From positions 2,634,001-2,698,000 of the forward strand of contig NZ_CP012602.1 in the NCBI RefSeq assembly GCF_001278805.1: a stretch of 64,000 nt of DNA, given 5' to 3'. The position numbers were made by a program, and so were the translations under genes. Positions 3,290 to 51,510 of this stretch are shown in pieces. Under the pieces are notes generated by a model. It did no database searches. It had not been told where the DNA came from and saw nothing but the letters and a program-made list of their open reading frames with translations. Position 1 is the stretch's first letter. The number at the start of each line of letters is the position of its first letter. This stretch comes from Bacillus sp. FJAT-18017 (lineage in GTDB: Bacteria; Bacillota; Bacilli; Bacillales; Cytobacillaceae).

Positions 3290-3371
3290 GAAAACGTCCG
3301 ATATAATCTTTGAAGAGGGTGATAAATTTCAGAAACCGTCCGATAAAATTCCAAAACCGTCCGATAAAATT
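3290..3371. repeat. Phased short repeat, four copies at 21 bp
   Basis: The core CCGTCCGATAAAATT recurs with GATA at 3300, 3321, 3342 and 3363, an exact 21-bp step; the second copy is degenerate. It lies between the convergent SASP and acetyltransferase genes. The reverse complement of the core (TTTATCGG) matches the 20-bp-step repeat at 22654-22725. Confidence 0.8.
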
Positions 3372-3489
3372 GTGTCAAAGGTATAAAGTAACTCAGGGCA
3401 GCGTTTTAAGGAGGAAATAGTAACCGTTATTGATCCGTTTCCCGACAGCAACTAGCAAACCGGACATGAATTCCATGCCCGGCTTCCCC

Positions 3490-3990
3490 TTACAACTTTA
3501 ATTGATACGCTTTAACGATAATCCCGTCTTCGGCGGGCTCGAAATCGAATTCGGGTTGCCGCTCAAAGCCTAGTCCTTCGTACAGTTTCATGGCATCACT
3601 CATAAATGAGCCGGTATGCAGACCGATTGCAACGTGCCCTTTCGCTCTGGCACGCTTGATGCATTCAAGTACAAGAGCTTTCCCAACTCCTTTGCCACGA
3701 AAAGCCTTTTCAACAGCAAGCACACGAATTTCGGGGTGCGCCAGTTCATCCAGATGCCCTTCATATGCATCGCTTTTTGCAGGAAACAAGGCGACACTTC
3801 CGGCAATTTCTCCACCAAGCTCAGCGACAATCAGCTCGACTCCCTGCTGCTGATCCGCTTCAGATGAGATCGCCTTCTTCAGTGCTTTCCAATGGTCGGC
3901 AGGAATTTTATCGGAATGCTCCTCATAAGAAGCTAGCCGCTGTGCACGAATCAATGGCAATTCCTCTTTTTTCGCATCACGAATGTTCAT
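3490..3990 (-). CDS. GNAT-family N-acetyltransferase
   Basis: 166 residues with the GNAT fold: strand-forming ELIVAELGGEIAGSVALF, the acetyl-CoA pyrophosphate loop region VEKAFRGKGVGKALV (Q/RxxGxG/A type, about residues 95-110), and the C-terminal MKLYEGLGFE motif. It transfers an acetyl group from acetyl-CoA to an unknown small molecule or protein amine. Its ATG shares one base with the stop codon of the upstream glutathionyl-hydroquinone-reductase-like gene (TAATG), so the two are translationally coupled and probably one operon. Confidence 0.85.
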   Translation of the reverse strand: MNIRDAKKEELPLIRAQRLASYEEHSDKIPADHWKALKKAISSEADQQQGVELIVAELGGEIAGSVALFPAKSDAYEGHLDELAHPEIRVLAVEKAFRGKGVGKALVLECIKRARAKGHVAIGLHTGSFMSDAMKLYEGLGFERQPEFDFEPAEDGIIVKAYQLKL

Positions 3991-4982
3991 TAGTCCTCGC
4001 TCCCCGGTACCAGGAATTTTTGACGCTTTCCGCTGATTGCTTCACGGCCATGCTTCGTAACCAGGCCGCTCAAATCTGGCCCTTTTGGCAAAATGCCTTT
4101 CGATTTTTGGTCATCAGCCGCAATATGGTTAGAAAGATGGTAATGCACCTTGATAGCATGGAAATCGGTCGTATCGCCAAATCCCGGAGTTTGATACAAG
4201 TCGCGCAAGTATCCCCAAAGGTTTGGGAAATCAACTATGCGGTTGCGGTTTGTTTTAAAAGCGGCATAATAGGCAGCATCAAAGCGCACCAGCGTTGAAT
4301 AGAGGCGGACATCGGAATCGGTTATGAAGTCGCCAAATAGGAACCGGCGCGAACTTAACCGTTCCTCAAGCTCGTCCAGCCGGGCAAATAACGTATCAAA
4401 AGCCTGCTCATATGCCTCCTGGGACTTGGCAAAGCCGCACTTGTAAACCCCATTGTTCACTTCATGAAAAATAACATCGTTCAAGGTATCAATATCTTCC
4501 CGCAGGTGCTTTGGATACAAATCCGGAGCATTTTCCTTATGGAAAGGTACCCAAGCCGTTTCAAAATAGTTCGTTAACCGGAAATAATCATTATTGACTA
4601 CCTTCCGTTCTTTGACATCTATAACGACCGGAACAGTCGGCCTTCCGGAATAATCCTGGTCGGTTTCCAAATAGATCTCACTCATATATTTGATGCCTAG
4701 AACCGGGTCAACTCCGCCTTTATCCAGTGAAAACTCCCAATCGACATGCGGAAGCCTTGGCCTCATCGGGCTTGCAGTCCCGAGACTGATCACATTTTCG
4801 AGCCCGAGCACACTTCTGACAATGACGGACCGGTGCGCCCATGGGCAGACCGCAGACCAAAGCAACCGATACCGCCCCGCTTCAACTGGCAGCTCGCCCT
4901 CCCCATGGCCAAATGGAGTCGTAAATCTATTTCCCTGTCTCTTAAATGAGCCGTCCTTGCTAATTTCAGCCGACTTTTCCAT
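3990..4982 (-). CDS. Xi-class glutathione S-transferase / glutathionyl-hydroquinone reductase-like (YqjG/ECM4 family)
   Basis: 330 residues with the thioredoxin-like N-terminal domain containing the catalytic Cys motif SAVCPWAHR, the IGRPTVP-type segment SGRPTVPVVID, and the all-helical C-terminal domain with FGDFITDSDVRLYSTLVRFD. The family reduces glutathionyl-quinones or other S-conjugates. Most Bacillaceae use bacillithiol rather than glutathione, so the physiological thiol is probably bacillithiol (inference). The start follows GGGGGATGTT. An inverted repeat at 5003-5021, just upstream, could be its operator. The GNAT gene follows directly. Confidence 0.88.
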   Translation of the reverse strand: MEKSAEISKDGSFKRQGNRFTTPFGHGEGELPVEAGRYRLLWSAVCPWAHRSVIVRSVLGLENVISLGTASPMRPRLPHVDWEFSLDKGGVDPVLGIKYMSEIYLETDQDYSGRPTVPVVIDVKERKVVNNDYFRLTNYFETAWVPFHKENAPDLYPKHLREDIDTLNDVIFHEVNNGVYKCGFAKSQEAYEQAFDTLFARLDELEERLSSRRFLFGDFITDSDVRLYSTLVRFDAAYYAAFKTNRNRIVDFPNLWGYLRDLYQTPGFGDTTDFHAIKVHYHLSNHIAADDQKSKGILPKGPDLSGLVTKHGREAISGKRQKFLVPGSED

Positions 4983-5002
4983 TCCAACATCCCCCTAGGT
5001 TA

Positions 5003-5021
5003 AAAACTATGTAGTAGTTTT
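5003..5021. promoter_or_regulatory. Perfect inverted repeat upstream of the quinone-reductase-like gene
   Basis: AAAACTA-TGTAG-TAGTTTT is a 7-bp perfect inverted repeat with a 5-bp spacer. It lies about 20-40 bp before the start at 4982 and directly downstream of a TATAAT-like box read on the minus strand. This is the position expected of a repressor operator, plausibly of a MarR/DUF24 thiol or quinone sensor (inference). Confidence 0.45.
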
Positions 5022-5076
5022 ATATTATATTAATCCGATAGGAATTTAAAATTAAATGGTTTTTATACAAAAAACC

Positions 5077-5172
5077 AATTCGAATCAGCGGGTGACTGCC
5101 TGTCCAGAAAATTAATTCAGCGGTTTTTTTAGTAATTCGAACAGTTTTTATAATAATTCAGCGGTTTTAAAA
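5077..5172. repeat. Phased short repeat with AATTCAGCGG core
   Basis: AATTCAGCGGTTTT-like units start at 5114, 5134 (as AATTCGAACAG) and 5155, steps of 20 and 21 bp, with a further partial copy (AATTCGAATCAGCGG) at 5077. It sits between the divergent quinone-reductase-like and HXXEE genes. Confidence 0.7.
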
Positions 5173-5257
5173 TTATATCTTCAAGTGCGGAATATTCAGA
5201 AAACAACTCGACCAATTGATCAATTTCCCGTTGTTTTTTGGTAGAGAATTTTTGCAT
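5129..5257 (-). CDS. Possible small ORF of 42 codons
   Basis: ATG at 5257 follows GAAGGAAAGTGG and opens a 42-residue frame beginning MQKFSTKKQREIDQLVELFS, predicted helical and charged. Its last third runs through the AATTCAGCGG repeats. It could be a small gene, or the remnant 5' end of a longer gene later overwritten by repeats. No family recognised. Confidence 0.25.
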   Translation of the reverse strand: MQKFSTKKQREIDQLVELFSEYSALEDIILKPLNYYKNCSNY

Positions 5258-5463
5258 AGGTCCACTTTCCTTCAGGTTATGTTATATTATTTTTTAAAAC
5301 GGAGGAAAAAAATGGTTGGATTTTTGATAATTGTTTGTGAAGTGTTGTTTTGGATTATGGTATAGTAAAGCGTTTGTGATGTCGCTTTGGGGTATTGTCT
5401 TGGCGATCGATTTCCTTATTTCCCCGTTCCCTCGAAAAACTCAAAAGCCAATTGTGGGGTAGG

Positions 5464-6006
5464 ATGAACATGCTATATTTTATAAATGATAATATTAGTA
5501 TGATAACGCTTATTTGGCTTTTTCCGGTTATCTTCATGCTACATGATTTCGAGGAAATCATTTTTGTAGAGTCGTGGTTCAAGAAAAATTACTATAAGGT
5601 CCGACCCCGGGTTCCCGCATCTATGCTAAAAACCTTTGAGAAAATGTCCACAGTCACCTCGGCTAGATTTTCCATCCCGGTTCTATTTCAACTTGTCATC
5701 TATATACCTGGCTGTTATCTCGCCGCTGAACAAAACATGTATGGGATGTTCATCGGTTTCACCGTCCTGTTTTTCTTGCACTTATTTATGCATATCGGCC
5801 AGTCGGTATTTTTAAACATGTATGCGCTCGGGACTGGAACTTCGCTACTTGTACTCCCATATTTCATTTACTTGTTTTATCGATTATTTTCAGAGGACAT
5901 CTTAGTGTTCTCCGACTTGCTCTTCTCCTTGCCATTCGGATTATTGCAGGCTGCGGCCCTTTTTGGGGGCCATGCAATTGCGCCTAAGATTCTTTCAGAA
6001 AAATAA
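5464..6006 (+). CDS. HXXEE-domain membrane protein
   Basis: About 180 residues with roughly five hydrophobic segments. The defining HXXEE motif is present as HDFEE in the first membrane segment (LFPVIFMLHDFEEIIFVESW), followed by a conserved helical core with LFMHIGQSV and a C-terminal GGHAIAPKIL. The family is widespread in Firmicutes, of unknown function, and is thought to be an integral membrane enzyme or transporter because of the conserved charged residues within the bilayer. The start is set at the ATG at 5464 after GTGGGGTAGG; ATG 5470 is possible. A long bidirectional terminator follows immediately. Confidence 0.75.
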   Translation: MNMLYFINDNISMITLIWLFPVIFMLHDFEEIIFVESWFKKNYYKVRPRVPASMLKTFEKMSTVTSARFSIPVLFQLVIYIPGCYLAAEQNMYGMFIGFTVLFFLHLFMHIGQSVFLNMYALGTGTSLLVLPYFIYLFYRLFSEDILVFSDLLFSLPFGLLQAAALFGGHAIAPKILSEK

Positions 6007-6040
6007 TAATCCTTCAGGTTCGAAGTCCTGAAGGATTATT
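6005..6040. terminator. Bidirectional terminator
   Basis: AATAATCCTTCAGG and CCTGAAGGATTATT form a perfect 14-bp stem with an 8-nt loop between the convergent HXXEE and FMN-reductase genes. Its left arm overlaps the HXXEE stop codon. Confidence 0.85.
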
Positions 6041-6046
6041 TCCATT

Positions 6047-6586
6047 CTATGCTTTTGCAAAATCAATAAAACGCTCAACGACTTCATCAATGAATCCTAG
6101 CGTAGCTTCGTCAACCAGCCTGCCATCCTTAAACTTCGCAAATGCTTGTGTTATTAAGATCTCGTTGCCTGCAGGCTGCAGTACTCGCGCCTGAAGACCA
6201 GGGCTAGAAAGGATTTGCCGTAAATGCTGCTGGGCGCGGATAGTCCCCATCACACCAGGTGTAGCACCGGCAATTAGCACAGGCTTATTTTTCAATACAA
6301 AATCGACACGTGATAGCCAGTCGAGAGCATTTTTCAGAACACCCGGCACAGACCAGTTGTATTCCGGAGTAACAATCAAGACAGCATCAGCATTAAGTAT
6401 CTCCTGCTTAAAGCGTTTAACTTCTTCACTTGGATCAAGCTCCTGATCCTGATCATAAAATGGCAGCCCGGCGATTTCCACGACAGAAATGTCTAGTTTA
6501 TCGCTATATCGCTCGCGAAGTGTTTCAACCAGCTGCAAATTCAAAGATTCTTTTCTAACACTGCCTACAAGTGCTGCAATTTTCAT
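6047..6586 (-). CDS. NADPH-dependent FMN reductase (ChrR/YieF-type)
   Basis: 179 residues with a flavodoxin-like fold: AALVGSVRKESLN for the FMN phosphate loop, TPEYNWSVPGVLKNALDWLSR for the FMN isoalloxazine region, and the GATPGVMGTIRAQQHLR helix. The family reduces flavins, quinones, azo dyes or chromate with NADPH and protects against quinone redox cycling. GGGGG directly abuts the ATG at 6592 but is 6 nt before the ATG at 6586, so the shorter form (MKIAALVG) is chosen. Single gene. Confidence 0.9.
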   Translation of the reverse strand: MKIAALVGSVRKESLNLQLVETLRERYSDKLDISVVEIAGLPFYDQDQELDPSEEVKRFKQEILNADAVLIVTPEYNWSVPGVLKNALDWLSRVDFVLKNKPVLIAGATPGVMGTIRAQQHLRQILSSPGLQARVLQPAGNEILITQAFAKFKDGRLVDEATLGFIDEVVERFIDFAKA

Positions 6587-6757
6587 GGTCATCCCCCGTT
6601 ATGTATATATTTTCTAAACAAAGTTATTCTACTCTAACAAATTTTTAACTTCAAATGTCCTGTTTGAAAATATGTAAATTTCAGAAATCATTAAGGGGAA
6701 CAATCGAGTGCATTTGATTCAGCACGCGATAAGCTTTATTAAAATAGGAATCAGAAA

Positions 6758-7519
6758 TTAGATGATAAATCCGCTATACACCATTCCAATATTAATTACG
6801 AAATGAAAAATAATACTTGGATAAATACTGTTTGTTTTAAGTGTGATTAACGCATAAATGACCCCTGCAATTGAAATTAGTAGACTGAGAGGTAGTGAAA
6901 AACCAATTGAGAGATGGAGAAGTCCAAAACCAATACTGGTAACGGCAATAGCATACCCTGTGGATGTATATTCTTTAAGACTCGAAAGCAGCGTCCCCCT
7001 CCAAATAACTTCCTCAAAAGCAGCATTAATAAGAGAAAAAAATAGACCAAACAAAACTAGAGAATGAGTAAACTCTATATCCTTTTGAACGATAAAAATC
7101 GCATATATAACTACGTTGACAACAATTCCAATCAGCCAAAACCAAAACATATCAACTTTATGAAATGGTAAGACGATAGGATTTTTCCAATCAGCCTTTT
7201 GATTGTACCAAGACATCTTCTTATTGAAATAAAGATGGTTAAAAACAATTCCTAAAATAATAAAAACAAGAGAAAGACGATTAAAAATAATTTTAAATTC
7301 CTTTGAAATGTTCATCGTTCCAATGAACTCATTTGATAACGAAAACAAGACAAAACCAATTAGAAACGATAACAGTACGGATGTAACGAAACGTTTTTCT
7401 TTATTAGCAAATAACAAAATCATTAATCCGAGAAATACAAATAAGGATAATACTACTTGTACGTAAGAAATAGAAACAATCGCAAGAAAAAATAAAGCCG
7501 CAATTATTACTAACAACAA
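6758..7519 (-). CDS. CPBP-family intramembrane metalloprotease
   Basis: 253 residues, about seven to eight membrane segments, with the CPBP (CAAX protease and bacteriocin-processing, Abi) motifs: EEVIWRG (Glu-Glu-x3-Arg), FGLLHLSIGF with its catalytic His, and the final FHFVINIG. Such enzymes cut substrates in the membrane; in bacteria roles include peptide or bacteriocin processing and self-immunity. The likely start is TTG, with AGGAGGA just upstream; no ATG is available in frame. The next upstream gene ends 65 bp away, on the same strand. Confidence 0.82.
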   Translation of the reverse strand: MLLVIIAALFFLAIVSISYVQVVLSLFVFLGLMILLFANKEKRFVTSVLLSFLIGFVLFSLSNEFIGTMNISKEFKIIFNRLSLVFIILGIVFNHLYFNKKMSWYNQKADWKNPIVLPFHKVDMFWFWLIGIVVNVVIYAIFIVQKDIEFTHSLVLFGLFFSLINAAFEEVIWRGTLLSSLKEYTSTGYAIAVTSIGFGLLHLSIGFSLPLSLLISIAGVIYALITLKTNSIYPSIIFHFVINIGMVYSGFII

Positions 7520-7584
7520 AATCCTCCTCTCCCCTTTTAAACAAACGTATGATTTTTTCCAACCATATGGACCAAAAAAACAAG

Positions 7585-8307
7585 TTATTTTCCTGTCTTA
7601 ATTGCTGCTTCACTTATGATCAAAGCTAGTCTCAATCTCCCTAGCCATTTTTCAGAATTACTCAGAACCCTGTTTAATCCATTAATATCTTCGTGATATT
7701 CTAAACCCTCAACCGCAGCATAAACCACCTTCAATTTTGCAATCCTGTGAGCAATCATTGCCCATTCAGAATCAGTCATTTTTTCGCACGAATATTTATT
7801 AATATATTCAGCGGCTTTTCTTGAAAATGAACAGGAGCCAGCAGTAATGTCTAAGTCCATACCTAGTTCGAGGGAACAAATTTTATTTGTTATTTTCTCA
7901 GTCTCCACCCATTCGGGCGGATGCGTATTCATAGCTCTTTCAGTTCGGCCCAAAATGAGATAATCGTGATTAGGGATGGCAGAAACAATCGTTCTTAGTT
8001 CTTGTAAATGATTTGCACCCCAGGTTAAAAGCCTGTCAAAATCACAGTAATGGTAATAGTCACTTTCTCCGTTTAGTCCAAAATCCACCACTTCTCTTCT
8101 TGCCTCGGCCGCGCCTTTTTTAGGAATAATTTTTAAAGTAAACTTGCTGTTTTCCATTTCCTTGATGAACTCAATTGAAGATTCTTCACTGATGGTTAAA
8201 AACAATTCTCCATAAATATCTTCTAGTTCTCTTTGAAGTTCATTGAATACCCTTATGTTTTTTCCATCCGGATCATGAGTAACTGTTAAGAGGCCTATTT
8301 TAGGCAA
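7585..8307 (-). CDS. Glycosyltransferase-like protein (GT-A type suspected)
   Basis: About 240 residues. It opens with a beta-strand and loop (PKIGLLTVTHDPDGKN) typical of nucleotide-sugar-binding folds. It has DYYHYCDFDRLLTW, which could be a DxD metal-binding motif, then YLILGRTERAMNTHPPEW and a Cys/His-rich C-terminal third. I do not recognise a precise family; a retaining or inverting GT-A enzyme is the best guess. The listed frame could start at GTG 8316, but GAGGTGG lies only properly spaced to the TTG at 8307, which is used here. Confidence 0.55.
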   Translation of the reverse strand: MPKIGLLTVTHDPDGKNIRVFNELQRELEDIYGELFLTISEESSIEFIKEMENSKFTLKIIPKKGAAEARREVVDFGLNGESDYYHYCDFDRLLTWGANHLQELRTIVSAIPNHDYLILGRTERAMNTHPPEWVETEKITNKICSLELGMDLDITAGSCSFSRKAAEYINKYSCEKMTDSEWAMIAHRIAKLKVVYAAVEGLEYHEDINGLNRVLSNSEKWLGRLRLALIISEAAIKTGK

Positions 8308-8382
8308 ATCTTCCACCTCATAAATTGATTTTGAATAAAAAAATCCATATTAAACCAGACGTGTTGAATATAAGATTCGACA

Positions 8383-8417
8383 AAACAGGACGTTATCCTT
8401 CTAGAATAACGTCCTGT
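8383..8417 (-). terminator. Terminator between ycgT-like and glycosyltransferase-like genes
   Basis: AACAGGACGTTAT pairs with ATAACGTCCTGTT around CCTTCTAGA. On the minus strand it is followed by TTTTG. It lies about 165 bp past the stop of the ycgT-like gene. Confidence 0.75.
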
Positions 8418-8579
8418 TTAATGAACCCGTACTATTTATAACTGATTACTTCTATTTTCTACATGATAACTTGCTTAAGGACCCAATAAATAATAAAAAT
8501 AACGTGTTCCAATTCCCCACGTCATTTTTATGTATTTCATCAAGAATGCACCCGACCACAATATTGCATTACATTAAAC

Positions 8580-9629: not shown

Positions 9630-9737
9630 AGGTTTCTCCTCTGTTTTGCCATATTTAATCAATAATGTGTTTTTTGTCACAGGTTCGTCATTGACTGAAA
9701 TTCCGAATCCCTTTATAGTGTTAATTGTAAGCGAAAC

Positions 9738-9752
9738 TGATAATCATTATCA
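9738..9752. promoter_or_regulatory. Fur box
   Basis: TGATAATCATTATCA is a perfect 7-1-7 palindrome identical to the Bacillus Fur consensus. It lies between ycgT and fhuC, 36 bp before the fhuC start and about 110 bp before the ycgT start. It predicts Fe2+-Fur repression of both directions. Confidence 0.92.
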
Positions 9753-9787
9753 ATTGAAAAATTAGTAAATGTTTTGGAGGAATGATC

Positions 9788-11513: not shown

Positions 11514-11533
11514 TTTGGGTAATAAGACTAAAA

Positions 11534-11568: not shown

Positions 11569-11651
11569 ATATAAATGTTTGAACAATAGTACATAAGCAA
11601 AACGTATTGTGAAAAAGCGCAGAGGATAAATGGCCGAAGTCTGTCGAGGAC

Positions 11652-11820
11652 AAAATGTCATAGCCATTTAGCTAAAATGTCCTCGAAATATACTTTCAAG
11701 TACAATTAGCCTTAGGCAGAAGTCCAAAATGTCCTTGAAACACATTTTCGGGTACAATTTACCTTAGTTGAATGATTAAAATGTCCACGAGCAAACAACA
11801 AACCACTAAAGTGCCCCTAA
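11652..11820. repeat. Phased repeat with 52-bp step, AAAATGTCC core
   Basis: AAAATGTCC occurs at 11674, 11726 and 11778, exactly 52 bp apart. A second element inside each unit, TACAATT, recurs at 11701 and 11753, also 52 bp apart. Extra partial copies lie at 11652 and about 11808. It fills most of the 394-bp gap between fhuD and fhuB, where no gene is visible. Confidence 0.85.
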
Positions 11821-22463: not shown

Positions 22464-22653
22464 CCTATAACACCTCGCAGATGTATTTTCTGTTTTTCGC
22501 AGTCCAGTTTAAGCAAAGTCGACACGTTTTTCTGAAGCTATCAGCCAAACGGATAACGTTATAACATTTTTCAAGCATGATGGAGATAGGTCAATCAAAG
22601 TTTTTGTTACAATTTTTACCAAAATCTACACGCTTGAGTTCCTGTTTCTTCTT

Positions 22654-22725
22654 TTTATCGAACGTTTTTCCGGTTTATCGGTCTAGTATAATTTTTATCG
22701 GTCCAACAGAAATTTTATCGGTCCA
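22654..22725. repeat. Phased short repeat, four copies at 20 bp
   Basis: TTTATCG starts at 22654, 22674, 22694 and 22714, an exact 20-bp step; the last copies read ATTTTATCGGTCCAAC. This is the inverted form of the core at 3290-3371. It lies in the 575-bp gap 22464-23038 upstream of srtN, in which I see no credible gene. Confidence 0.82.
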
Positions 22726-22989
22726 ACCGCCGCCACCCACTTCGATTATGGGCAAAAAGGTATGTCTGTTTGTATGCTAACCGGCATTCCATAAACCGAG
22801 TTCCTCTGACAGGAGTATTGACCCTTTAATCATGTATAGAACCATGCTCCTTCCTAAAGCCCGTAGCTATACACTTCTTCATATTCGTTTTAAACTCCTG
22901 CATGTTTTCATGCAAATATCCGACAAGTTAAGAGTGTTAACAAAATCCCCATAATTTTATGAAGCAGCGTAACTATTTCCAATAAAAAA

Positions 22990-35661: not shown

Positions 35662-36075
35662 AAATGAAGGAACACAACCAGGATAGACATGCATTGGCAT
35701 AAAACAAACTTACTTATCATTTAGTTGTCATCACAAAATATCGTCATCCTTGTATCACCAAACCAATGATGGAAGGTTAAAAGAAATCATCATTGAACTT
35801 TTTGAAATGGGATTGCGAATTAATTGAAATGAACGGAGAGCCCGACCATATCCACATTTTATTTGACGCTCCACTGCAAATCCAACTTTCTAATATCATT
35901 AATAGTTTAAGACTGTAACCTCCCGATTAATCCGCAAGCAATTTGGAGAACATTTGTGTCACTACTATTGGAAACTGTATTTTTGGGGTCTTAGTTACAT
36001 GGTAGTATCCACGGGTGGGGCAACGGTTGAGTCATAAAAAAATATATTGAAGAACAAGGCAAACGAGAAAAATAA
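35662..36075 (+). pseudogene. tnpA: Broken TnpA (Y1 HUH transposase)
   Basis: Reading the plus strand gives MKEHNQDRHALA, a stop, then LTYHLVVITKYRHPCITKP and, after further stops and frame changes, GEPDHIHILFDAP (the HUH motif HIH), RKQFGEHLCHYYWKLYFWG and YIEEQGKREK. These are successive TnpA segments in the right order, interrupted by at least three stops or frameshifts, so the gene is dead. Confidence 0.8.
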
Positions 36076-39623: not shown

Positions 39624-40580
39624 TTAGTTGAATAAAAAACGTTTATTGCTTAAAAAATGCGAGCAAAATTTTTTAACAACATAGGGTATTTCTTGTTCAA
39701 GATACCCATATTCGTCTTTATTTTTAGAAAGGAATGATAGATTCCTAATGATTTGCCATAAGAAGAAAGATTCTAAAACAATTTTATAATCTTCTTGTAA
39801 ATCCCGTCTTTCACTATAATAACGAATAAAAATTTTTTGATTCTCCTGACTAAGATGAAGAAATGTTTCAGCAATGTCAAATAAATAAAAGCCAAAACCG
39901 CAACACGAGAAATCTATTGCAAAAGCTACCCCATCACGAAGAATGTAATTACTCTCGTGCAAATCGGAATGGATAATTCCCCAAGTATCCTTGTTTATAT
40001 GTTGCTCCTTAATTACAACCTTTAGTTTATCTGAAACATTTAGTAATGCGTTATAATCCTCTGCATTGATAACTTTCTCTTTTAAAAGAACTTTGAGTTG
40101 TTTTATTGAATTGTCAACATTAGAACCGTCGTAGATTGGTCTAGTGAATTTTCGTGGAACAATCCATTCAGAGGAATGATTATGTAATGTCGCCATTAAA
40201 TTCGCTAACCCATAAATTTCTTTCTCGGTCGGTTGTCCTTGAATATGTTTTCCATCAATCCACCTCTGTAATGTAAAATAGTAACTTTCGTGTTCCAAAT
40301 TTTTTATTACACTAACCAGTTCACCTTTTGAATTATAAATGGGAACCTGTACAGTTAGCTCGGTGTCATTATTGAGGGCTAATAACCACTTTAATTCAGA
40401 AGAAATCAACGCCTTAGTTGTATTACCCAGATGAAGCTTAAGCAGATACTTTTTACCTGTTGCATTTATTTTATATGCCAGGTTATCGTTTCGACCTAAA
40501 AACTCTAATTTTTGGACTTTTAAATCATAAAACTTTTTTAGGGCTCTTACTAAAAACTCCTCTTTTATAGGGTTAGCCAC
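39624..40580 (-). CDS. APH-fold phosphotransferase (SrkA-like kinase)
   Basis: 318 residues of the aminoglycoside phosphotransferase/choline kinase fold: the ATP-binding lobe with AYKINATGKKYLLKLHLG, catalytic loop IHSDLHESNYIL (HxDxxxxN), and the metal-binding IDFSCCGFGFYLFDIA. Substrates of relatives include aminoglycosides, homoserine, choline, or protein Ser/Thr (SrkA). This one cannot be assigned. The start is GTG at 40580 after GAAGGGATG. The stretch 38926-39212 and the flanks of this gene are AT-rich and otherwise empty. Confidence 0.82.
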   Translation of the reverse strand: MANPIKEEFLVRALKKFYDLKVQKLEFLGRNDNLAYKINATGKKYLLKLHLGNTTKALISSELKWLLALNNDTELTVQVPIYNSKGELVSVIKNLEHESYYFTLQRWIDGKHIQGQPTEKEIYGLANLMATLHNHSSEWIVPRKFTRPIYDGSNVDNSIKQLKVLLKEKVINAEDYNALLNVSDKLKVVIKEQHINKDTWGIIHSDLHESNYILRDGVAFAIDFSCCGFGFYLFDIAETFLHLSQENQKIFIRYYSERRDLQEDYKIVLESFFLWQIIRNLSFLSKNKDEYGYLEQEIPYVVKKFCSHFLSNKRFLFN

Positions 40581-41296: not shown

Positions 41297-41880
41297 ATAT
41301 TGGAAGTTTAATTAGATTAATTTCCTTCTATGCTGATAACAAATCTTAATGGAAGCACTAATTAGATTAATCTCCCTCCGCCCCCACACGATTAATCCAA
41401 TTGGATGGCTCAATTAGATTAATCTCCTTCCGCGCCCACACGATTAATCCAATTGGATGGCTCAATTAGATTAATCTCCTTTCGCACCCACACGATTAAT
41501 CCAATTGGATGGCTCAATTAGATTAATCTCCTTTCGTACCCACACGATTAATCCAATTGGATGGCTCAATTAGATTAATCTCCCTTCGCACCCACACGAT
41601 TAATCCAATTGGATGGCACAATTAGATTAATCTCCCTTCACACCTATACTATTAATCTGATTGGAAGGCTCTAATAGATTAATCCCACTACACACACCTA
41701 CGATTAATCCAATTGGATGGCTCAATTAGATTAATCTCCTTTCGCGCCCACACGATTAATCCAATTGGATAGCTCAATTAGATTAATCTCCCTTCGCGCC
41801 CACACGATTAATCTGATTGGAAGGCTCTAATAAATTAATCTCACTACACACACCTACGATTAATCCAATTGAAAAGCGCA
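41297..41880. repeat. 52-bp tandem array, about eleven copies
   Basis: The unit contains GATTAATCCAATTGGATGGC and CAATTAGATTAATCTCC with a C-rich piece between (TTCGCACCCACAC). TTGGAT/TTGGAA starts at 41401, 41453, 41505, 41557, 41609, 41661, 41713, 41765, 41817 and (as TTGAAA) 41869: every step is 52 bp. Older copies precede at about 41349 and 41300. Sequence varies between copies while length does not. Each unit has two palindromic elements, ATCCAATTGGAT and GATTAATC. It sits between the uidA terminator and a small decayed gene, with no ORF inside. Confidence 0.92.
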
Positions 41881-41911
41881 CACAGTCAGCAAATGGTCAG
41901 AGAAAATAAAA

Positions 41912-43769: not shown

Positions 43770-43802
43770 AAATTTTTGCCTCCATTCTTTCTCTATAATT
43801 TG

Positions 43803-43816
43803 TGAAAGCGATTAAA
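43803..43816. promoter_or_regulatory. Candidate cre (CcpA) site in the uidA promoter
   Basis: TGAAAGCGATTAAA departs from the cre consensus TGNAANCGNWNNCA at one fixed position. It lies just downstream of a TATAAT box (43825-43820, minus strand) of uidA, a typical place for catabolite repression. Confidence 0.5.
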
Positions 43817-43927
43817 TTTATTATAGGGTATACTCCTTAGTGGAATTCGTACTATTTTTGCTAAAATCGTAATTATTTGCGTTTTCTATCTATCCTTTGT
43901 AAAGTTAACCTGAAAGGATGTTACAGA

Positions 43928-45169: not shown

Positions 45170-45193
45170 CCATGCTAAATTAACTGTCTTTTT
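45152..45193 (+). terminator. Terminator of the AraC gene
   Basis: AAAAAGACAGT and ACTGTCTTTTT form the stem; the gene's stop codon lies in the loop. Confidence 0.78.
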
Positions 45194-45340
45194 ACAAATT
45201 AATTGTAAAGAGGGTCAAACTTCTGTTATCGGCAGTACGTTTTGAATACCAATTTTATTTATCTTTATAAGCTGCTGATTCCCTCTTTAAGAAAGTCCTT
45301 ACTTATAGGGTTGGGGGATCAGATTACTCCCGAGTTGATA

Positions 45341-45540
45341 AATAGACGGAGGGATTCCGCTTAATTAGTTAATTAAATAAAAAATAGCTTCAATAGACGG
45401 AGAGATCGCCTATTGTCTAAAAACATATGAAAATGGGGGCTTTTACTCTGTTTAACCGGAAAACCTTATTTACATTGAACCGAGCTCTCTTCTCTATCTA
45501 GCCGGAAAAATTCCGCTTATTTTACTATCGCTGGTTTCTC
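45341..45540. repeat. Phased repeat, AATAGACGGAG core with 51-bp step
   Basis: AATAGACGGAG occurs at 45341 and 45392 (51 bp). Further on, CCGGAAAA-type elements at about 45456 and 45502 continue the theme, the second as CCGGAAAAATTCCGCTTATTTT. That element resembles the AAGCGGAAAAACTCCCCTTA unit at 50771, so the two loci may be related. Located in the 665-bp gap 45170-45834 between convergent genes; no gene seen in it. Confidence 0.65.
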
Positions 45541-45651
45541 GATTAAGGACAGACATCTTTTATAAAAGAGAGTGAGTTTTAACCACTCATTTTGATGCAT
45601 TAGGGTGAACCGTATGTGGGGTTTTATAAAAATTCGGCCTTTGTATCCCTA

Positions 45652-45684
45652 AAAAAGAAACTCGCCAATGGCGAGTTTCTTTTT
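45652..45684. terminator. Bidirectional terminator between convergent genes
   Basis: AAAAAGAAACTCGCCA and TGGCGAGTTTCTTTTT form a perfect 16-bp stem around a single A. Confidence 0.85.
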
Positions 45685-45834
45685 ACAATATCATCAATAA
45701 TATGCCAAAACGACTTTCATTCGGCACATATTTACTTCAAAACTGAACCCTTTACAAACTTTAGGCTCTCTATTGTTATTTTACAGTGGAAAATCGCCAG
45801 TGCTGTTCAAGCACAGGTCTTTCTATCCTTTCCT

Positions 45835-47019
45835 TTATCTGCCGCAGCACTTTTTATATTTTTTTCCGCTGCCGCAATGGCAAGGATCATTTCTTCTAAT
45901 CTTATTGTTGTCGGATACCGTATGCGATACTTTTTGTTGCCGATGAGACAACTCTATTGGAGTATATCCTTTTAGAACCCATTGCCTCGTATTGTTCATT
46001 AAATTTCCAATGTATACCATGAAAGCCTTCAATGTTTCAAGATTATCAAACTCTACCCTTCTTTGGAGATACTGCAGAATATCATTCGGCGACTCACCAA
46101 TCTGTGTTGCATAGACACATTCCTCGACAATGCTCTCGGCACCCTCTTTAGTAATTAGATAGTTATCAGTAAGGAAGGTGACAAAATCAGCAAAGCCTTT
46201 ATTTCGATCAAGGAAATCGGGCTGTCCAGCACTAAGAATTTGTTCCTTCGTGAACGGATAAAACTCGAGGTCCTTCCTCAAACCGTGTTCCTGCAGAACC
46301 TTTTCCGAATCAAAGACCCTCATAGTGGAATAGCCATTCGTGTCGTGCCGGATTTGGCCATAATAAGAAATTGCCTCCTCAATAACTGGAAGGTAGTCAC
46401 GCAACTTCAATGGTTCATCCAAATACTTTTCAAGCAAATCAACAAGTTCATAAATACCTAAAGATCCATAATAGAAAAGCAGCCCGTGAGTGAGTGAAAT
46501 CCACTCCGTATTCCGGCGCGCAATCGCCCTCCACTCAAGCTCTTTCTCCCGCCAAAGCGGACTTGCAACAACCTCCTCAGGCATTGCCAGCATGTTTTTC
46601 CCCTCAACACTTCCTGTGAAAAGAATGCCGTACTCCTGAAAATAATCAAGCTGGCGACCTGTTAATTTGGGTGCTGCCAATAGCCCATTCCCTTTAACCA
46701 CCTTCATTAAAAGTCTGAATCGCTGCTCGTTCAATTTTTCAAAGAGCTTACCTATCGAGACTGGAATTTCAGTTACTAATACCTCAATTAACTCGCCCTT
46801 CTTCAGCTGGCTCACACCAGAAATCTCAAGCCGCTGTCTGATTTTGACCAAATCATCCTTTGAAAGCCTTGAAAGGGCATCTTTTGTGAAAAAAGGCACC
46901 GAGATTGCACTCCACCTTTTCTCCTCCCTCTTCTGCTCGGTTTTGGCTGTCAACTCTCTCATTTTTGCAAAGGCATTCATTAATTGTTTGCTATCTTTTT
47001 CACTAATTGTACTGCTCAT
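45835..47019 (-). CDS. SEC-C metal-binding domain protein
   Basis: 394 residues. The last 20 (NDPCHCGSGKKYKKCCGR) form a SEC-C zinc-binding motif (CxC...CC), the same as at the end of SecA, where it contacts SecB or the ribosome. Residues 50-85 (LSRLSKDDLVKIRQRLEISGVSQLKKGELIEVLVTEI) resemble a SAP/Rho-N nucleic-acid-binding helix pair. The middle is helical and unrecognised. GAGGTGG is 6 nt before the ATG. It follows a methyltransferase-like gene by 15 bp and is co-transcribed with it. Confidence 0.85.
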   Translation of the reverse strand: MSSTISEKDSKQLMNAFAKMRELTAKTEQKREEKRWSAISVPFFTKDALSRLSKDDLVKIRQRLEISGVSQLKKGELIEVLVTEIPVSIGKLFEKLNEQRFRLLMKVVKGNGLLAAPKLTGRQLDYFQEYGILFTGSVEGKNMLAMPEEVVASPLWREKELEWRAIARRNTEWISLTHGLLFYYGSLGIYELVDLLEKYLDEPLKLRDYLPVIEEAISYYGQIRHDTNGYSTMRVFDSEKVLQEHGLRKDLEFYPFTKEQILSAGQPDFLDRNKGFADFVTFLTDNYLITKEGAESIVEECVYATQIGESPNDILQYLQRRVEFDNLETLKAFMVYIGNLMNNTRQWVLKGYTPIELSHRQQKVSHTVSDNNKIRRNDPCHCGSGKKYKKCCGR

Positions 47020-47034
47020 CTTGCCACCTCAACT

Positions 47035-47907
47035 TCATAAATAACACAAAATCGATTTTTCTATCCAATATGTAAAAATAGTTTCAGGATTTTGTTTTTC
47101 AAATTCTTTCATTTTTAAATACATGTCCAGTCCATCGGAAACATCATGCCACAAGTCAGTGAACACAAAATCATACTTCTCTTTAGGCATCTCACTTTTT
47201 GCATAGGTAAAAGCATCCGATTGTATAATCCTAATCTTATCGGCATGGTTGAATTGAGGTAATATGTGTTTTGTAAACAGGTCGATTACATCTTCATTCA
47301 TGTCAACAATCGTCACGCTTTCAACGTTCTCTTTTTCGGAAACCATGTAGGCGTAATAACCAAGCCCCAAACCGTATGTAAGGACATTCCCATATGCCTG
47401 GCCGACAGGCTCCTTCATCGTCTCAATTTCATTAGGGGTAATGGTCATCCAGATTCGTCCATTTTCAAGAACTGCCGGGAACTTGAATTCGTTTTGGAAA
47501 AATCCGATTTGCGGTACCTGCCTTCCCTCTTTTGTCTGGATGATATCGTCACAGACAAAGCCTTCAAATGGTTTATAGGTGTCATACTTCAGTTCACTAT
47601 TGCCGATTTTCATAGCTGGGATTTTAATGTTTTTGTAATAGGGGTTTGAGTAAAACTCATTTTCATCAAGCTTATGAAACATTTCTCTAAAGTAAAGGTT
47701 AAATACTTTTTTATCAGCTTCATTGTCAATGATATCAAGCCCAAACGCAGCCGCCATAATGATGGCAAATGCATACTCATATGAAAGTCCGCCGTTTACA
47801 ATTTCCTCAATTTCTTCTTTATCAACATATTCAGGTGCTTTATTCAAATAATTACTCAGCATAGCAAACACTCTGTAGTTGTCTTCTTTTATTTGGTTAT
47901 TTTGCAT
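47035..47907 (-). CDS. Class I methyltransferase-like (spermidine-synthase-like fold)
   Basis: About 290 residues. The C-terminal half carries a SAM-type motif (NVLTYGLGLGYYAYMVSEKENVESVTIVDMNEDVIDLF), an acidic residue pattern and DFVFTDLWHDVSDGLDMYLKM, as in spermine/spermidine synthase-like proteins. The N-terminal 130 residues are helical. The substrate is unknown. AAGGTGATGG is spaced to the ATG at 47907, so the longer frame from 47991 is rejected. First gene of a two-gene operon with the SEC-C protein. Confidence 0.75.
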   Translation of the reverse strand: MQNNQIKEDNYRVFAMLSNYLNKAPEYVDKEEIEEIVNGGLSYEYAFAIIMAAAFGLDIIDNEADKKVFNLYFREMFHKLDENEFYSNPYYKNIKIPAMKIGNSELKYDTYKPFEGFVCDDIIQTKEGRQVPQIGFFQNEFKFPAVLENGRIWMTITPNEIETMKEPVGQAYGNVLTYGLGLGYYAYMVSEKENVESVTIVDMNEDVIDLFTKHILPQFNHADKIRIIQSDAFTYAKSEMPKEKYDFVFTDLWHDVSDGLDMYLKMKEFEKQNPETIFTYWIEKSILCYL

Positions 47908-48223
47908 ATCCATCACCTTAGCGCTTATATTTGCAGTCCTGATCTCCGATGCAACGGACGAACAAAAAGTATAACCCAAACCCAGCATCAAAACCAGAAA
48001 TCCACCTTTGACTCCCCGTCCACATTGGTCTTATGTAAATCTCCATTTCTGCAAATAACATGGCGGCATCTTCGGTAAAAAGGGCCATTACAAATTTTAT
48101 CATAAAAACTCTATCCGACTTTGTCATAAAACATAATTAACACAGGTTTTTAATGGGCTGTAAAAGCATACATTTCCAATTCATGAATATTTGTTTAGTA
48201 GTCGGTTTAAAGGAGGATATTTT

Positions 48224-49156
48224 ATGAGGAAAAAAATATTGCTGTTCTGCGATCCCGGAATAGATGATTCAATCGCTATTATATACTTACTCCTTAATCC
48301 CAATATAGAGCTTGTTGGCATTGTGACAAGCTACGGCAATGTAACCAAACGGCAGGCAACTGCAAATGCGTATTACTTGCTTCAAATTGCCAATGAAACT
48401 CACATTCCTGTTATTGCCGGAGCGGCAACATCGGTTGAACCGGACCAGGATGTATATTATCCGGATATTCATGGTGCGGAAGGACTTGGCCCAATTAGGC
48501 CTCCAAGCAGTCTAGTGTTTCAAACCTATCCTTTCGATGAGGTCAGAAAAATTATCAATCAATATGAAAAAGAATTGATCATTGTCGACACAGGCCGGTC
48601 AACAGCGTTGGCAACGGCCTTTACGCTGTTCGATGAGGATATTAAGAAGGTCGGATCTTTTTATGTAATGGGGGGAGCATTTTTTGTCCCCGGTAATGTG
48701 ACTGCTTTGGCGGAGGCAAATTTTTATGGTGATCCCACCTCAAGCAATTATGTAGTTAGAAGAGCGCATAATTTAACCATAACCCCTTTAAACGTGACTC
48801 AGAATGCAATCATTACAAGGGAGATCGTTCAATACTTAATCCGCTATTCAACATCTCCCTTCTCATTTTTAATTACACCGATTTATGAGTATTATCGGGA
48901 AGCGTATAAAAAGAACCTTCCGAATGTTCAAGGAGCTCCCGTCCACGACCTGCTCACAGTTATGGTCGCCAATGACCCATCTCTGGCAGAGTACATCTAT
49001 TATGATGCTAAGGTAGTTGATGCTCCGGGAGATGCAAGAGGCCTCTCCTTCATCGATGCAAGGCCAACAAGCCCAAGGGGTAAAACCAGGATTGCAGTCA
49101 GATTGAACTATCAGAAATTCGTAAATGACTTTGTAAAAACAATGACGCAAACGTAA
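48224..49156 (+). CDS. Inosine-uridine-type nucleoside hydrolase
   Basis: 310 residues with the family signature FCDPGIDDSIAIIYLL (Ca2+-binding Asp cluster), ELVGIVTSYGNVTKRQATANAYYL, and YVMGGAFFVPGNVTALAEANFYGDP, plus the C-terminal VHDLLTVMVA with its conserved His-Asp. It hydrolyses ribonucleosides to base and ribose for salvage. Cytoplasmic. AAAGGAGG is 8 nt before the ATG at 48224. Terminator shared with the convergent cupin gene. Confidence 0.9.
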   Translation: MRKKILLFCDPGIDDSIAIIYLLLNPNIELVGIVTSYGNVTKRQATANAYYLLQIANETHIPVIAGAATSVEPDQDVYYPDIHGAEGLGPIRPPSSLVFQTYPFDEVRKIINQYEKELIIVDTGRSTALATAFTLFDEDIKKVGSFYVMGGAFFVPGNVTALAEANFYGDPTSSNYVVRRAHNLTITPLNVTQNAIITREIVQYLIRYSTSPFSFLITPIYEYYREAYKKNLPNVQGAPVHDLLTVMVANDPSLAEYIYYDAKVVDAPGDARGLSFIDARPTSPRGKTRIAVRLNYQKFVNDFVKTMTQT

Positions 49157-49211
49157 GCGAATGATAAAATACTCTGGATATGAAGGATGGGCTTCTGCCT
49201 TATACCAAAGA

Positions 49212-49254
49212 AAAGGGTAACTCTCCAAGATAAAACTTGGATGAGTCACCCTTT
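49212..49254. terminator. Bidirectional terminator
   Basis: AAAGGGTAACTCTCCAAG pairs with CTTGGATGAGTCACCCTTT with small mismatches, between the nucleoside hydrolase and cupin genes. Confidence 0.8.
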
Positions 49255-49255
49255 A

Positions 49256-49831
49256 TTAATAGTAAAAATACGTATTTGCGGACGGCATTGAAAAATGCCT
49301 GTGTTCTTCGGCAGCCATTGCATCCGCTTTCGTTTGGTGGACGGTTCCCTTTGGATGCTGCGGAGGAGCGTAAATAGAATATAATTTTAAAGGAGTGTTC
49401 CCGGTATTGGTGACATTATGCCAGGTGCCCGCGGGAATCATAATCGCCGAATCATCGACTACCTCCCTAACAAAATTCAGGTTATCCCTGCTTTTGCCCA
49501 TACGGACGGTCCCTCTGCCCTGTTCAACCCGCAGGAATTGATCAAGGTTCGGATGATTTTCAAGGCCGATATCTTCACCGGCATTAATGCTCATTAATGT
49601 AACCTGCAAATGACTTCCTGTCCATAACGCAGTTCTGAATGTATTGTTCCGCTTCGCTGCCTCATTGATATTCACCACAAACGGTGCAGGACCGAAATCT
49701 TTCTGTGTTTCTCTATACGGTGTGTGATAGTTGATTCCATTTTGAGGATCAGGCTGCCAACCATAGTTATGATAGGGGAAATAATGGTAATAATGATTCT
49801 GATATGGATCCCCATTAGGATCATGGTACAT
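49256..49831 (-). CDS. Cupin-domain protein
   Basis: 191 residues. A Tyr/His/Asn-rich N-terminus (QNHYYHYFPYHNYGWQ) is followed by a cupin barrel with motif 1 ENHPNLDQFLRVEQGRGTVRMG and motif 2 MIPAGTWHNVTNTGNTPLKLY. The metal-ligand His of motif 1 and motif 2 are present. The aromatic N-terminus resembles spore-surface proteins, but no family is certain. GGAGGGATT fits the ATG at 49831; the longer frame from 49864 starts before this site. Confidence 0.83.
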   Translation of the reverse strand: MYHDPNGDPYQNHYYHYFPYHNYGWQPDPQNGINYHTPYRETQKDFGPAPFVVNINEAAKRNNTFRTALWTGSHLQVTLMSINAGEDIGLENHPNLDQFLRVEQGRGTVRMGKSRDNLNFVREVVDDSAIMIPAGTWHNVTNTGNTPLKLYSIYAPPQHPKGTVHQTKADAMAAEEHRHFSMPSANTYFYY

Positions 49832-50084
49832 TGATAATCCCTCCACAGACGTTTGGGTTATCATATGCGTGGATTGGGTGCTGGGTACCTAATTACTCCC
49901 TAAAGGAATTTGGGGCTGGAAACTACCGCTTAAGTTCCCAGACGGCAGCCTTTAATCGGCTTGAAAGGTGATTTTTCCTAGTTCCGGCCGCTCCCCCTTT
50001 TTTTATATGCATTTTAAATGTAAAATTGCCTGTATAAAAAATGGAGTGCATGAAATTGGTTTCCATGCACTCCATGGATAAGGT

Positions 50085-50588
50085 TTATCCTTGGTAGACT
50101 TCGTTTAACTCATCCATATTTATTTTTTTCATTTGAAGCAGTGCTTTCATAACCCTTTCAGATTTGTGAAGATCTGGGTCAGTTAACATCTCGGGTAAGG
50201 TGGCGGGAACAATTTGCCATGATACTCCAAACTTATCTTTCAGCCAGCCACACACCTGAGCCTTCTCATCCCCGCCTTCAGAAAGCTTTTCCCAAAAATA
50301 ATCGATTTCCTCTTGAGACTCGCAATTTACGATAAAAGAAATCGCTTCAGTAAATTTAAATTGGGGTCCGCCGTTCAACGCCACAAATTCCTGCCCTTCG
50401 AGAGTAAATTGGACGGTCATGACAGTCCCTTCGCTTATTCCGTCTATTGGATGCCGCTCTTTCCCATAACGGGTAACCTTCCCAATGCTCGAATTCTTGA
50501 AAATCAAAGTATAATGGTTTGCTGCCTCCTCGGCTTCGGCAGTAAACCAAAGGTTTGTCGTAATTTTCGTGATTTTCTTATTCACCAC
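50085..50588 (-). CDS. PhnB-like VOC-family protein
   Basis: About 167 residues of the VOC/PhnB (3-demethylubiquinone methyltransferase-like) family: ITTNLWFTAEAEEAANHYTLIFKNSSIG, GQEFVALNGGPQFKFTEAISFIVNCESQEEIDYFWEKLSEGG, and CGWLKDKFGVSWQIVP. The family fold is known but its activity is generally not. AAGGAG is 7 nt before the GTG at 50588, a better start than the ATG at 50627, which has no site. The 253-bp space upstream to the cupin gene holds no visible gene. Confidence 0.85.
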   Translation of the reverse strand: MVNKKITKITTNLWFTAEAEEAANHYTLIFKNSSIGKVTRYGKERHPIDGISEGTVMTVQFTLEGQEFVALNGGPQFKFTEAISFIVNCESQEEIDYFWEKLSEGGDEKAQVCGWLKDKFGVSWQIVPATLPEMLTDPDLHKSERVMKALLQMKKINMDELNEVYQG

Positions 50589-50659
50589 TTTTGTGCTCCT
50601 TAAGTTTTTAGCTCTGTTAGTATTCATTGTTGATTTTTGTTGAGGTATGAAAATTTATT

Positions 50660-50845
50660 AGGGGGAGAATTTCCGTCTATTGTACCCACGGGCACCTTAA
50701 GAGACAGAAATAAGTGGAGAAATTCCCCTTACCTTCTTAAAATAAGTCAAAAACCAATGATTCTGGTATGATAAGCGGAAAAACTCCCCTTATTTTAATG
50801 GAAATATGGGTATTTCCCGATTTAACCGGTATTTCTCCCCTTATT
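50660..50845. repeat. Phased repeat, GGAGAAATTCCCCTTA theme
   Basis: GGAGAAT, GGAGAAA, GGAAAAA and GGTATTT units begin at 50664, 50716, 50777 and 50828: steps of 52, 61 and 51 bp. Each is followed by TTCC or CCCCTTA. It fills the gap between the PhnB-like and VOC genes. Confidence 0.75.
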
Positions 50846-50915
50846 TTTCAAACAGAGTGAAATCAACATTCAGATATAACAGAGCCAAGTTTTTAAAATT
50901 GCCTTTAAAGCAAGC

Positions 50916-51296
50916 CTATTTCGTTTTTTCCATAACAGCAAAGTAATTGTCTTCCCGATCCGCAAAATTGAAAACTTTCCCGGATGGCAGGGCAACAATC
51001 TCTCCAACTGTTATTCCCTTCTCAACCAGGCTGCTATGCAGCTTTTCGAGGTCATCCGTGAAAAGCATTAACGAAGGTGTTCCTAAATTTAAGTCCGGCT
51101 CCATTTTCGCAATGAATTCCTTATCGTGGAGAACAAAACTTGTTTCTGAATCAGATGATGGAGCCACCTCAATCCATCTCATGCCTTGTCCATTTTCTTC
51201 AGAAATAACCGTAAACCCCATAACATCTGTCCAAAAACGTGCAGCCTCATCCTGGTTATTGACGTATAACATAATTTGACCAACTCTACTAATCAT
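50916..51296 (-). CDS. VOC-family (glyoxalase/bleomycin-resistance fold) protein
   Basis: 126 residues: GQIMLYVNNQDEAARFWTDVMGFTV, RWIEVAPSSDSETSFVLHD, PSLMLFTDDLEKLHSSLVEKGI and VFNFADREDNYFAVME, a complete pair of beta-alpha-beta-beta-beta modules. Substrate unknown. GTGAGG lies 7 nt before the ATG at 51296. Confidence 0.87.
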   Translation of the reverse strand: MISRVGQIMLYVNNQDEAARFWTDVMGFTVISEENGQGMRWIEVAPSSDSETSFVLHDKEFIAKMEPDLNLGTPSLMLFTDDLEKLHSSLVEKGITVGEIVALPSGKVFNFADREDNYFAVMEKTK

Positions 51297-51380
51297 TATT
51301 TTTACCTCACTTTCATTTTTAAAAGTTTAAGTTTGTCATAGCAACTTTCAATGCAGGCGGGGAAACCCCTAATTTAACAG

Positions 51381-51510
51381 CTGTTCCCGTCTTCATAAGC
51401 CAAATGAAGGAAGGGTAAGCCTCATTTTGATAACTGTTCCCGTCTTCATAAGTCCAATGAAGGACGGTTAAGCCTCGTTTTCACGGCTGTTCCCGTCTTC
51501 ATAAACAAAT
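51381..51510. repeat. Phased repeat, CTGTTCCCGTCTTCATAA core at 53 bp
   Basis: CTGTTCCCGTCTTCATAA begins at 51381, 51434 and 51487, two exact steps of 53 bp. Each copy is followed by CCAATGAAGG or similar, which pairs with the CTTCAT of the core, giving a hairpin per unit. Located between the VOC gene start and the catalase gene end; the remainder up to 51732 shows no credible gene. Confidence 0.85.

Follow-up and report, generated by a model that had tools for sequence, protein, structure and literature searches.

The 64,000-nucleotide stretch of the Bacillus sp. FJAT-18017 chromosome analysed here (positions 2,634,001-2,698,000 of its single 5.27-Mb contig, hereafter the window) carries eight intergenic arrays of short tandem repeats with steps of 20-21 or 51-53 bp, which belong to a described class of constant-size 20-21/52-nt repeats (Subirana and Messeguer, 2021; PMC8161180). 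Judged from sequence, the 52-bp repeats appear to hold a short recurrent core, GAC, inside an otherwise variable arm, and the published statement that 52-nt repeats show no sequence conservation (PMC8161180) can therefore be refined. We see an even chance that a sequence-specific DNA-binding protein, or a set of paralogs of one fold, uses the 52-bp arrays as lattices of paired half-sites, and this reading fits the evidence better than those based on RNA, mobile hairpins or slippage alone.

The 52-bp unit is a mirror pair of ~14-bp arms with a linker of 5-7 bp and a spacer of ~17 bp. Folding at the best axis pairs the arms at distances 4-17 in families of quite different letters: the mean over 60 arrays of this genome is 10.5 pairs of 14, against 7.9 ± 0.85 in shuffled units, and 29 of the 60 reach 11 pairs, as do 0.4% of shuffles. 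An unconstrained search for the best inverted 10-bp window gave at least nine pairs in 29/60 units of this genome (null 1.9%) and in 12 of the 27 consensus units of PMC8161180, Table 1 (null 0.1%). Among the units reaching nine pairs, the gap is short (5-7) in 15/29 of this genome and 9/12 published ones, and is 15 in 8/29 and 2/12, where the inverted window falls in the outer part of the arm. Signal words accompanied by their reverse within one unit, described as frequent in PMC8161180, are present in this genome as well.

Located by motif in the three families A, B and E, the arms follow one another as > spacer < linker > spacer <. Of 100 linker gaps, 95 have the modal length (35/36 in B, 23/25 in A, 37/39 in E), and modal spacer gaps are slightly less frequent (39/44, 20/28 and 39/46, respectively), so the centres of the 14-bp arms lie ~21 and ~31 bp apart, equal to two and three helical turns, and those of the GAC words 22 and 30 bp apart. 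Among 40 chains, 24 start with > and finish with <, six show the opposite and ten are odd (p = 0.0014 for 24 versus 6), which identifies the unit as arm-spacer-arm. A loxP-type recombination core site has 13-bp arms around 8 bp; such a core, suggested by the near-invariant linker, was rejected because the arrays mostly end in half-sites unpartnered across the linker, and a linker-centred site is therefore not the unit. Solitary units are nearly absent (1/44 in B, 0/46 in E and 3/29 in A, those of A adjoining degenerate units).

The arms are what members of a family share. Between loci (small sets of 4, 9, 8, 7 and 13 arrays in families A, B, E, C and D, limited to units exactly 52 bp long with an arm score of at least 9), arm identity is 0.86-0.90 in A, B and E, 0.77 in C and 0.68 in D, a mixed group, whereas spacer identity is 0.37-0.46 and linker identity 0.40-0.52, with the exception of A (0.93). 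Within arrays the arms change at a rate of 5.2%, the spacers at 13.6% and the linkers at 12.7% (132 copies, from arrays with an arm score of at least 10). Spacers are alike within one array and unrelated between arrays, and each array therefore amplifies its own spacer.

This pattern bears on an origin as mobile palindromes resembling repetitive extragenic palindromic (REP) elements or REPINs, spread by a Y1 transposase (IS200-like or REP-associated tyrosine transposase, RAYT) and amplified in place, the step being the element length. Such an origin is unlikely. Dispersed families, hairpin-capable arms and two Y1 open reading frames without stops in the genome agree with it, as does the array L037:6705-7034 of family B, which lies in a ~400-bp stretch that, through insertion or deletion, is wholly absent at the orthologous site of Bacillus sp. 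EB01. However, members of a family at different loci have almost nothing in common in their spacers and most of their linkers, and intact copies of whole units are therefore not observed; single units hardly occur; and no 52- or 20-21-bp array was found at four Y1 loci (matches with 1.5-kb flanks), on which account a RAYT link was rejected. A miniature transposon with target duplications was likewise rejected, since outer flanks differ from each other in 21/23 arrays and match the linker in 2/23 upstream and 3/23 downstream; the two arrays with identical linker-length bases outside both ends both apparently lie in degenerate array continuations. A phage or plasmid origin found no match when one array of one family was queried against each. 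Two Y1-related features stand beside these results: a decayed IS200-type Y1 transposase gene at window ~35703-36043 (+), with two partial Pfam Y1_Tnp matches and internal stops, and a 130-bp-period array of 3.9 copies at the locus of a stop-free Y1 transposase open reading frame (L196:2113-2618), possibly an element-linked repeat unlike the 52-bp class.

The core lies within these conserved arms. Reading outward from the linker axis, GAC starts 10 (sometimes 9) bases away across different families, in units with a confident dyad axis, to which the core analysis was confined (34/60 units of this genome, 13/15 from relatives sampled at 80 named Bacillales catalase loci, and 14/27 published). It occupies this place in 50/68 arms of this genome, compared with 9.4 shuffled arms carrying GAC anywhere; relatives' arms hold it in 16/26 (shuffled 4.3) and published arms in 17/28 (shuffled 4.2). 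Because a unit's two arms do not count as independent observations, families rather than arms were counted: GAC stands at 9-10 in at least one arm in 5/8 families of this genome, 9/13 of other genera, 8/13 published (one near-duplicate of the 14 set aside) and 5/7 of a hold-out set, 27/41 in total, each count exceeding all 2000 paired shuffles of its set (shuffle maximum 3 or 4). GAC at 9-10 ranks first over all 64 trinucleotides and positions, and after removal of look-alikes it persists in 10/16 families versus 0.6 expected (maximum 4). In a matrix of 82 arms, built with arms carrying GAC at base 9 moved over by one base (the family count was run unshifted), G occurs 65, A 64 and C 68 times; base 5 is T in 63 arms and never G, bases 15-16 are mostly A/T, and some families without GAC show TAC or GAT at the core position.

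Because the core was first noticed by eye in the units of this genome, its relatives and the published table together, only the hold-out counts as an advance prediction. With the GAC prediction fixed beforehand, 20 stretches from 20 other genomes of the family yielded nine 52-type arrays in 7 stretches, and GAC stood at 9-10 in 6/9 overall and in 5/7 with a confident axis (score at least 8). The initial annotation had described loci sharing a helical period rather than a sequence; for the 52-bp units this contrast no longer holds, as a dyad layout is common to them and roughly two families in three also have the GAC core. A single ancestral repeat that spread through Bacillales and diverged, leaving the core as a relic without present function, would account for a core and layout common across genera and for look-alike arms between genomes. 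We regard it as distinctly improbable: a three-base core kept at a fixed position among scrambled neighbours, together with arms less variable than spacers, suggests constraint.

Mirrored arms could also act in RNA if transcripts of the arrays formed rows of hairpins or small RNAs, a possibility that Subirana and Messeguer consider. Transcription of 52-nt repeats is reported in B. coagulans (PMC8625621), the arms can pair, and five compensated arm changes versus 0.7 expected by chance leave some room for a folded form. Nevertheless, this explanation is quite unlikely: arm changes are mostly uncompensated (96 versus 5), the consensus units in 36 same-strand gaps show no sense-strand G-U preference (30 G-U versus 25 A-C), no Rfam match was found within the window, and a period of whole DNA turns would have no reason in RNA. 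Gene context adds to this, since the arrays exceed expectation in convergent gaps. For lag 51-53, 79 of 83 regions divide into 52 tandem, 18 convergent and 9 divergent gaps versus 48.0, 12.0 and 19.0 expected from intergenic length (p = 0.014); for lag 20-21, 36 of 37 divide into 19, 11 and 6 versus 21.9, 5.5 and 8.7 (p = 0.034), the remaining regions having no called gene on one side. The deficit in divergent gaps speaks against a main role in regulating neighbours, although most arrays lie in tandem gaps, where such a role may still apply.

The fixed periods extend well beyond the window; the initial annotation had proposed a check for a genome-wide excess at 20-21 and 51-53 bp. Across 80 evenly spaced 20-kb stretches outside the window (971 intergenic segments of up to 1500 bp, 321 kb, delimited by a simple codon-bias gene caller of our own; self-match 13/15 bases), intergenic DNA shows self-match peaks at 20-21, 42, 51-53, 104 and 156 bp that are missing from length-matched coding segments and from shuffled DNA. 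Lag 52 is seen in 64/971 intergenic and 0/971 coding segments, shuffles averaging 1.3; lag 20 is seen in 12 intergenic and 0 coding segments, and lag 21 in 23 and 3, respectively. At each of the main lags the coding count lies between 0 and 3 and the shuffle count between 0 and 1.3. The other intergenic counts are 9 and 11 at lags 41-42, 17 and 11 at 51 and 53, 4 and 10 at 62-63, 9/16/46 at 102/103/104 and 5/7/23 at 154/155/156; small peaks of 4-5 segments stand at 32, 37 and 84 (5 each at the latter two). Tandem Repeats Finder placed 128/172 intergenic rows, which can overlap, and 10/51 coding rows in the 20-21/52 classes or their multiples. Primary units of three, four and six turns are scarce (4 rows at 32, 10 at 40-42 and 0 at 62-63), which means that the step is not free to take just any multiple of a turn; some rows also stand at 37 bp.

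With the window included and regions of up to 2500 bp counted, as for gene orientation, lag 51-53 occurs in 83 regions and lag 20-21 in 37; a 99-stretch sample under the same limit holds 89 and 38 such regions, extrapolating to ~237 and ~101 per genome. Equal length with different sequence, claimed initially for the window, holds throughout the genome, where the 83 lag-51-53 regions fall into 14 groups with words in common plus 7 singletons. It also holds in other Bacillales genera: the periods recur, with other sequences, in both samples, the 80 catalase loci (regions of up to 1500 bp, N-run artefacts removed from L116, L127 and L170) and the 20 hold-out stretches. Even spacing of arrays and a replication bias were considered and set aside: the number of arrays per stretch comes close to a Poisson distribution (mean 0.975, variance 1.17). 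The chromosome from 0 to 0.53 Mb is poor in arrays, its 11 stretches holding two regions of the 52 type and none of the 20/21 type, and the next ten stretches hold 15 and 14. The longest array listed among the relatives, in Bacillus dakarensis (L118:5634-8059), has 23 copies of a 104-bp period made of two 52-bp half-units.

Strain comparison indicates how arrays change. At the protein level the window catalase shares 98% identity with its counterpart in Bacillus sp. EB01, and the two genomes are ~93% identical; comparison by mirrored coordinates was only partly usable because the chromosomes are not collinear, and both flanks were found for 15/120 arrays. In this comparison of orthologous arrays, a check suggested initially, five arrays are of equal length and three differ by approximately whole units (the window array at 51376 by 53 bp; L080 by 154, ~three units; L053 by 20, unit 21), while six differ by other amounts, their compared intervals including non-array sequence with flanks that are not tight, and one is absent. 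Slippage or unequal recombination within arrays is enough for the unit changes, not for the arms. Mutation alone, that is, tandem duplication with a step preferred by the replication or repair machinery and no function, is accordingly very improbable, although whole-unit differences between strains and spacers alike only within arrays agree with it. It leaves the arms conserved between loci, the dyad layout and the GAC core unexplained; the 52-bp step is missing from coding DNA; and the subtilis, pumilus and megaterium groups, which presumably replicate their DNA with similar machinery, are reported to have few 52-nt repeats or none (PMC8161180). The copying mechanism with a fixed step that the initial annotation had offered as one option, taken alone, fails in the same way, on arms conserved while spacers and most linkers vary.

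A factor reading one face of the DNA, the other option offered there, remains the best explanation, because of the conserved arms, the core, the in-phase and near-rigid linker, the near-obligatory multiplicity and the weak RNA signatures. In the proposed lattice, each unit would consist of two inverted ~14-bp half-sites, loosely [TG]nTnnnnGACnnWW outward from the linker, with the ~17-bp spacer between them and the near-invariant linker joining successive units; these sizes would make the arm centres alternate at two turns (~21 bp) and three turns (~31 bp), summing to 52 and presenting one face of the helix. Some 20-21-bp arrays may be a direct-repeat form, with one half-site every two turns. 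The putative protein would bind cooperatively, needing at least two adjacent units, and units would be gained and lost whole; we infer a role in chromosome architecture or insulation rather than in the regulation of particular genes. A bolder version, possible but on the doubtful side, is that a previously undescribed Bacillales protein family recognises the GAC-centred half-site and forms polymers on in-phase arrays, each of two or more units, at ~200-300 intergenic places, serving chromosome-wide architecture; its flanking specificity would diverge fast with core and geometry fixed, and the 52-bp and 20-21-bp repeats would be two arrangements of one half-site.

Several observations weigh against the half-site lattice. 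The dyad axis is confident in only the fractions of units given above, and 14/41 families lack GAC at 9-10, including three of the eight representatives of this genome (C, C2 and D), which were themselves chosen by hand. In the hold-out, 13/20 stretches carry no 52-type array; the set is not independent in sequence, as the arms of its five confident GAC arrays share 10-13 of 15 bases with an earlier arm, and its genomes may be kin of those sampled before. The surplus of compensated arm changes noted above belongs here too. The link between the two size classes is weak: the 52-bp core matrix gives a mean z of 0.95 on 38 non-independent 20-21-bp units, and direct comparison of 52-bp arms with 20-21-bp units yields 10.9/15 versus 10.5 in shuffles. 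Finally, of the initial claim that steps are whole helical turns, the dominance of two- and five-turn steps stands, but with 10.5 bp per turn a repeated 20-bp step drifts out of phase, and the 61-bp step at 50.7 kb does not fit either.

The 20-21-bp arrays are direct repeats. Several of their families carry GGAC/GTCC words beside A/T runs, for example GGACATTTC, and words of this type occur as TATCGGAC or TATCGGTCC in two window loci; GAC or GTC is present in 20/38 units versus 12.9 expected, the units not being independent. As a class they resemble the 52-bp arms only modestly, and a half-site common to both size classes is plausible for a subset of the 20-21-bp arrays only. In Sporosarcina, 21/42-bp arrays of TTTATCACC or TTTATCCGC type lie at L126:12611-12727, L126:19861-19956 and L155:8241-8334.

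Within the window, an unbiased lag scan of intergenic regions of up to 2500 bp returned exactly the eight loci first annotated, five with a step of 51-53 and three with a step of 20-21, and re-measurement reproduced their steps (listed below). Their description as unrelated units needs qualification: there are several families of different sequence, but TTTTATCGG is common to the units at 3.3 kb and 22.7 kb, and therefore not all eight loci are unrelated. The pattern TTTATCGGWCNNA, drawn from the 22.7-kb array, has 38 matches in the chromosome versus 12 for its reversed control, many of them at 20- or 40-bp steps. Elsewhere in the window, an open reading frame at 39624-40580 (-) matches a phosphotransferase family (APH).

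Repeat arrays of the window, with positions counted from its first nucleotide
Array	Scan position	Re-measured steps in bp (interval)	Type	Comparison with EB01
3297..3373	3327	21/42/63 (3290-3390)	21-bp direct repeats, CCGTCCGATAAAATTC type	Ortholog longer, arranged differently
5113..5168	5122	41 and 21 (5100-5175)	20-21 bp, TAATTCAGCGGTTTTT type; repeated part without GAC or GTC	Equal length
11642..11800	11671	52/104 (11640-11800)	52 bp, family E; arm like TTTC[AG]AG[GT]ACA, half-site order > < > < >	Equal length
22654..22727	22687	20 (22640-22740)	20-bp direct repeats, TTTATCGGTCCAACAGAAAT	Interval 32 bp longer, with one more unit
41360..41871	41357	52/104/156 (41340-41890)	52 bp, 9.8 units, family C; arm core GATTAATC, no GAC	One flank only in EB01 stretches
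45338..45407	45338	51 (45320-45420)	Two units at 51 bp, TAGACGGA type	Present
50664..50849	50781	61/51/52 (50650-50860)	Degenerate units at 51/52/61 bp, TAAGGGGA type	51-bp pair of equal length
51373..51514	51376	53/106 (51360-51520)	53 bp, 2.7 units, family F (CGTCTTCAT / ATGAAGGACGG)	One 53-bp unit fewer

Fixed size combined with an apparent lack of sequence conservation had left the published class without a mechanism and without a target for mutation; it becomes testable with a core that recurs, a near-fixed linker and arms under constraint beside free spacers. Were the protein found, it would represent an abundant chromosome-organising system in bacilli, reportedly missing from the B. subtilis group, the usual model.

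The comparison with known systems begins with that class, whose existence overturns the initial statement that no such family had been described. Following an overview in 2019 (PMC6749651), Subirana and Messeguer reported 4029 tandem repeats of constant size and variable sequence from 176 Bacillus genomes, chiefly of 20-21 nt (781) and 51-53 nt (1886); they discuss polymerising proteins, the nucleoid and small RNAs, equate 20-21 nt with two helical turns and do not settle whether the two sizes are related (PMC8161180). The sizes, the mostly non-coding location, the several families of one size per genome, the partial conservation between strains and the centring on Bacillus are the same here, and two of their Table 2 signals, AARGACA and ATGACAC, include GAC. 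Their threshold of at least four units is reached in the window only by the array at 41360-41871, the other seven being shorter, and by other arrays of the genome; it is a detection setting rather than a property of the class. The accessible text of PMC8161180 makes no mention of 'palindrom', 'hairpin' or 'convergent', and the dyad layout, the linker and the position of GAC were not found stated in the literature available; protein binding or an inverted structure of these repeats was not announced in the papers found, subscription papers lying mostly beyond the search.

REP elements with GTAG or CGTC tags are likewise intergenic palindromes of many families. In the passages of PMC3733652 available, the CGTC type has no known transposase, stems of 8-9 bp, loops of 4-5 bp, an unpaired tag at one end and rare clusters, and Firmicutes are not listed among its phyla; by that description the present repeats differ in having arms of ~14 bp, a core inside the arm and a nearly constant arrangement in arrays. 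Clustered regularly interspaced short palindromic repeats (CRISPR), a comparison raised and dismissed in PMC8161180, similarly alternate palindromic parts with other sequence at regular spacing. The spacers of CRISPR are unique, whereas here the sequence between arms repeats within each array, loci are many and the step is 52. Iterons and plasmid centromere arrays consist of in-phase direct repeats of ~20-22 bp bound by an assembling protein at one locus per replicon; the present arrays differ in their many chromosomal loci and inverted pairs. The TAACTGA direct repeats of Beggiatoaceae (PMC4679880) are, as far as that account goes, also abundant, intergenic and unexplained in role, but consist of one fixed heptamer in another phylum.

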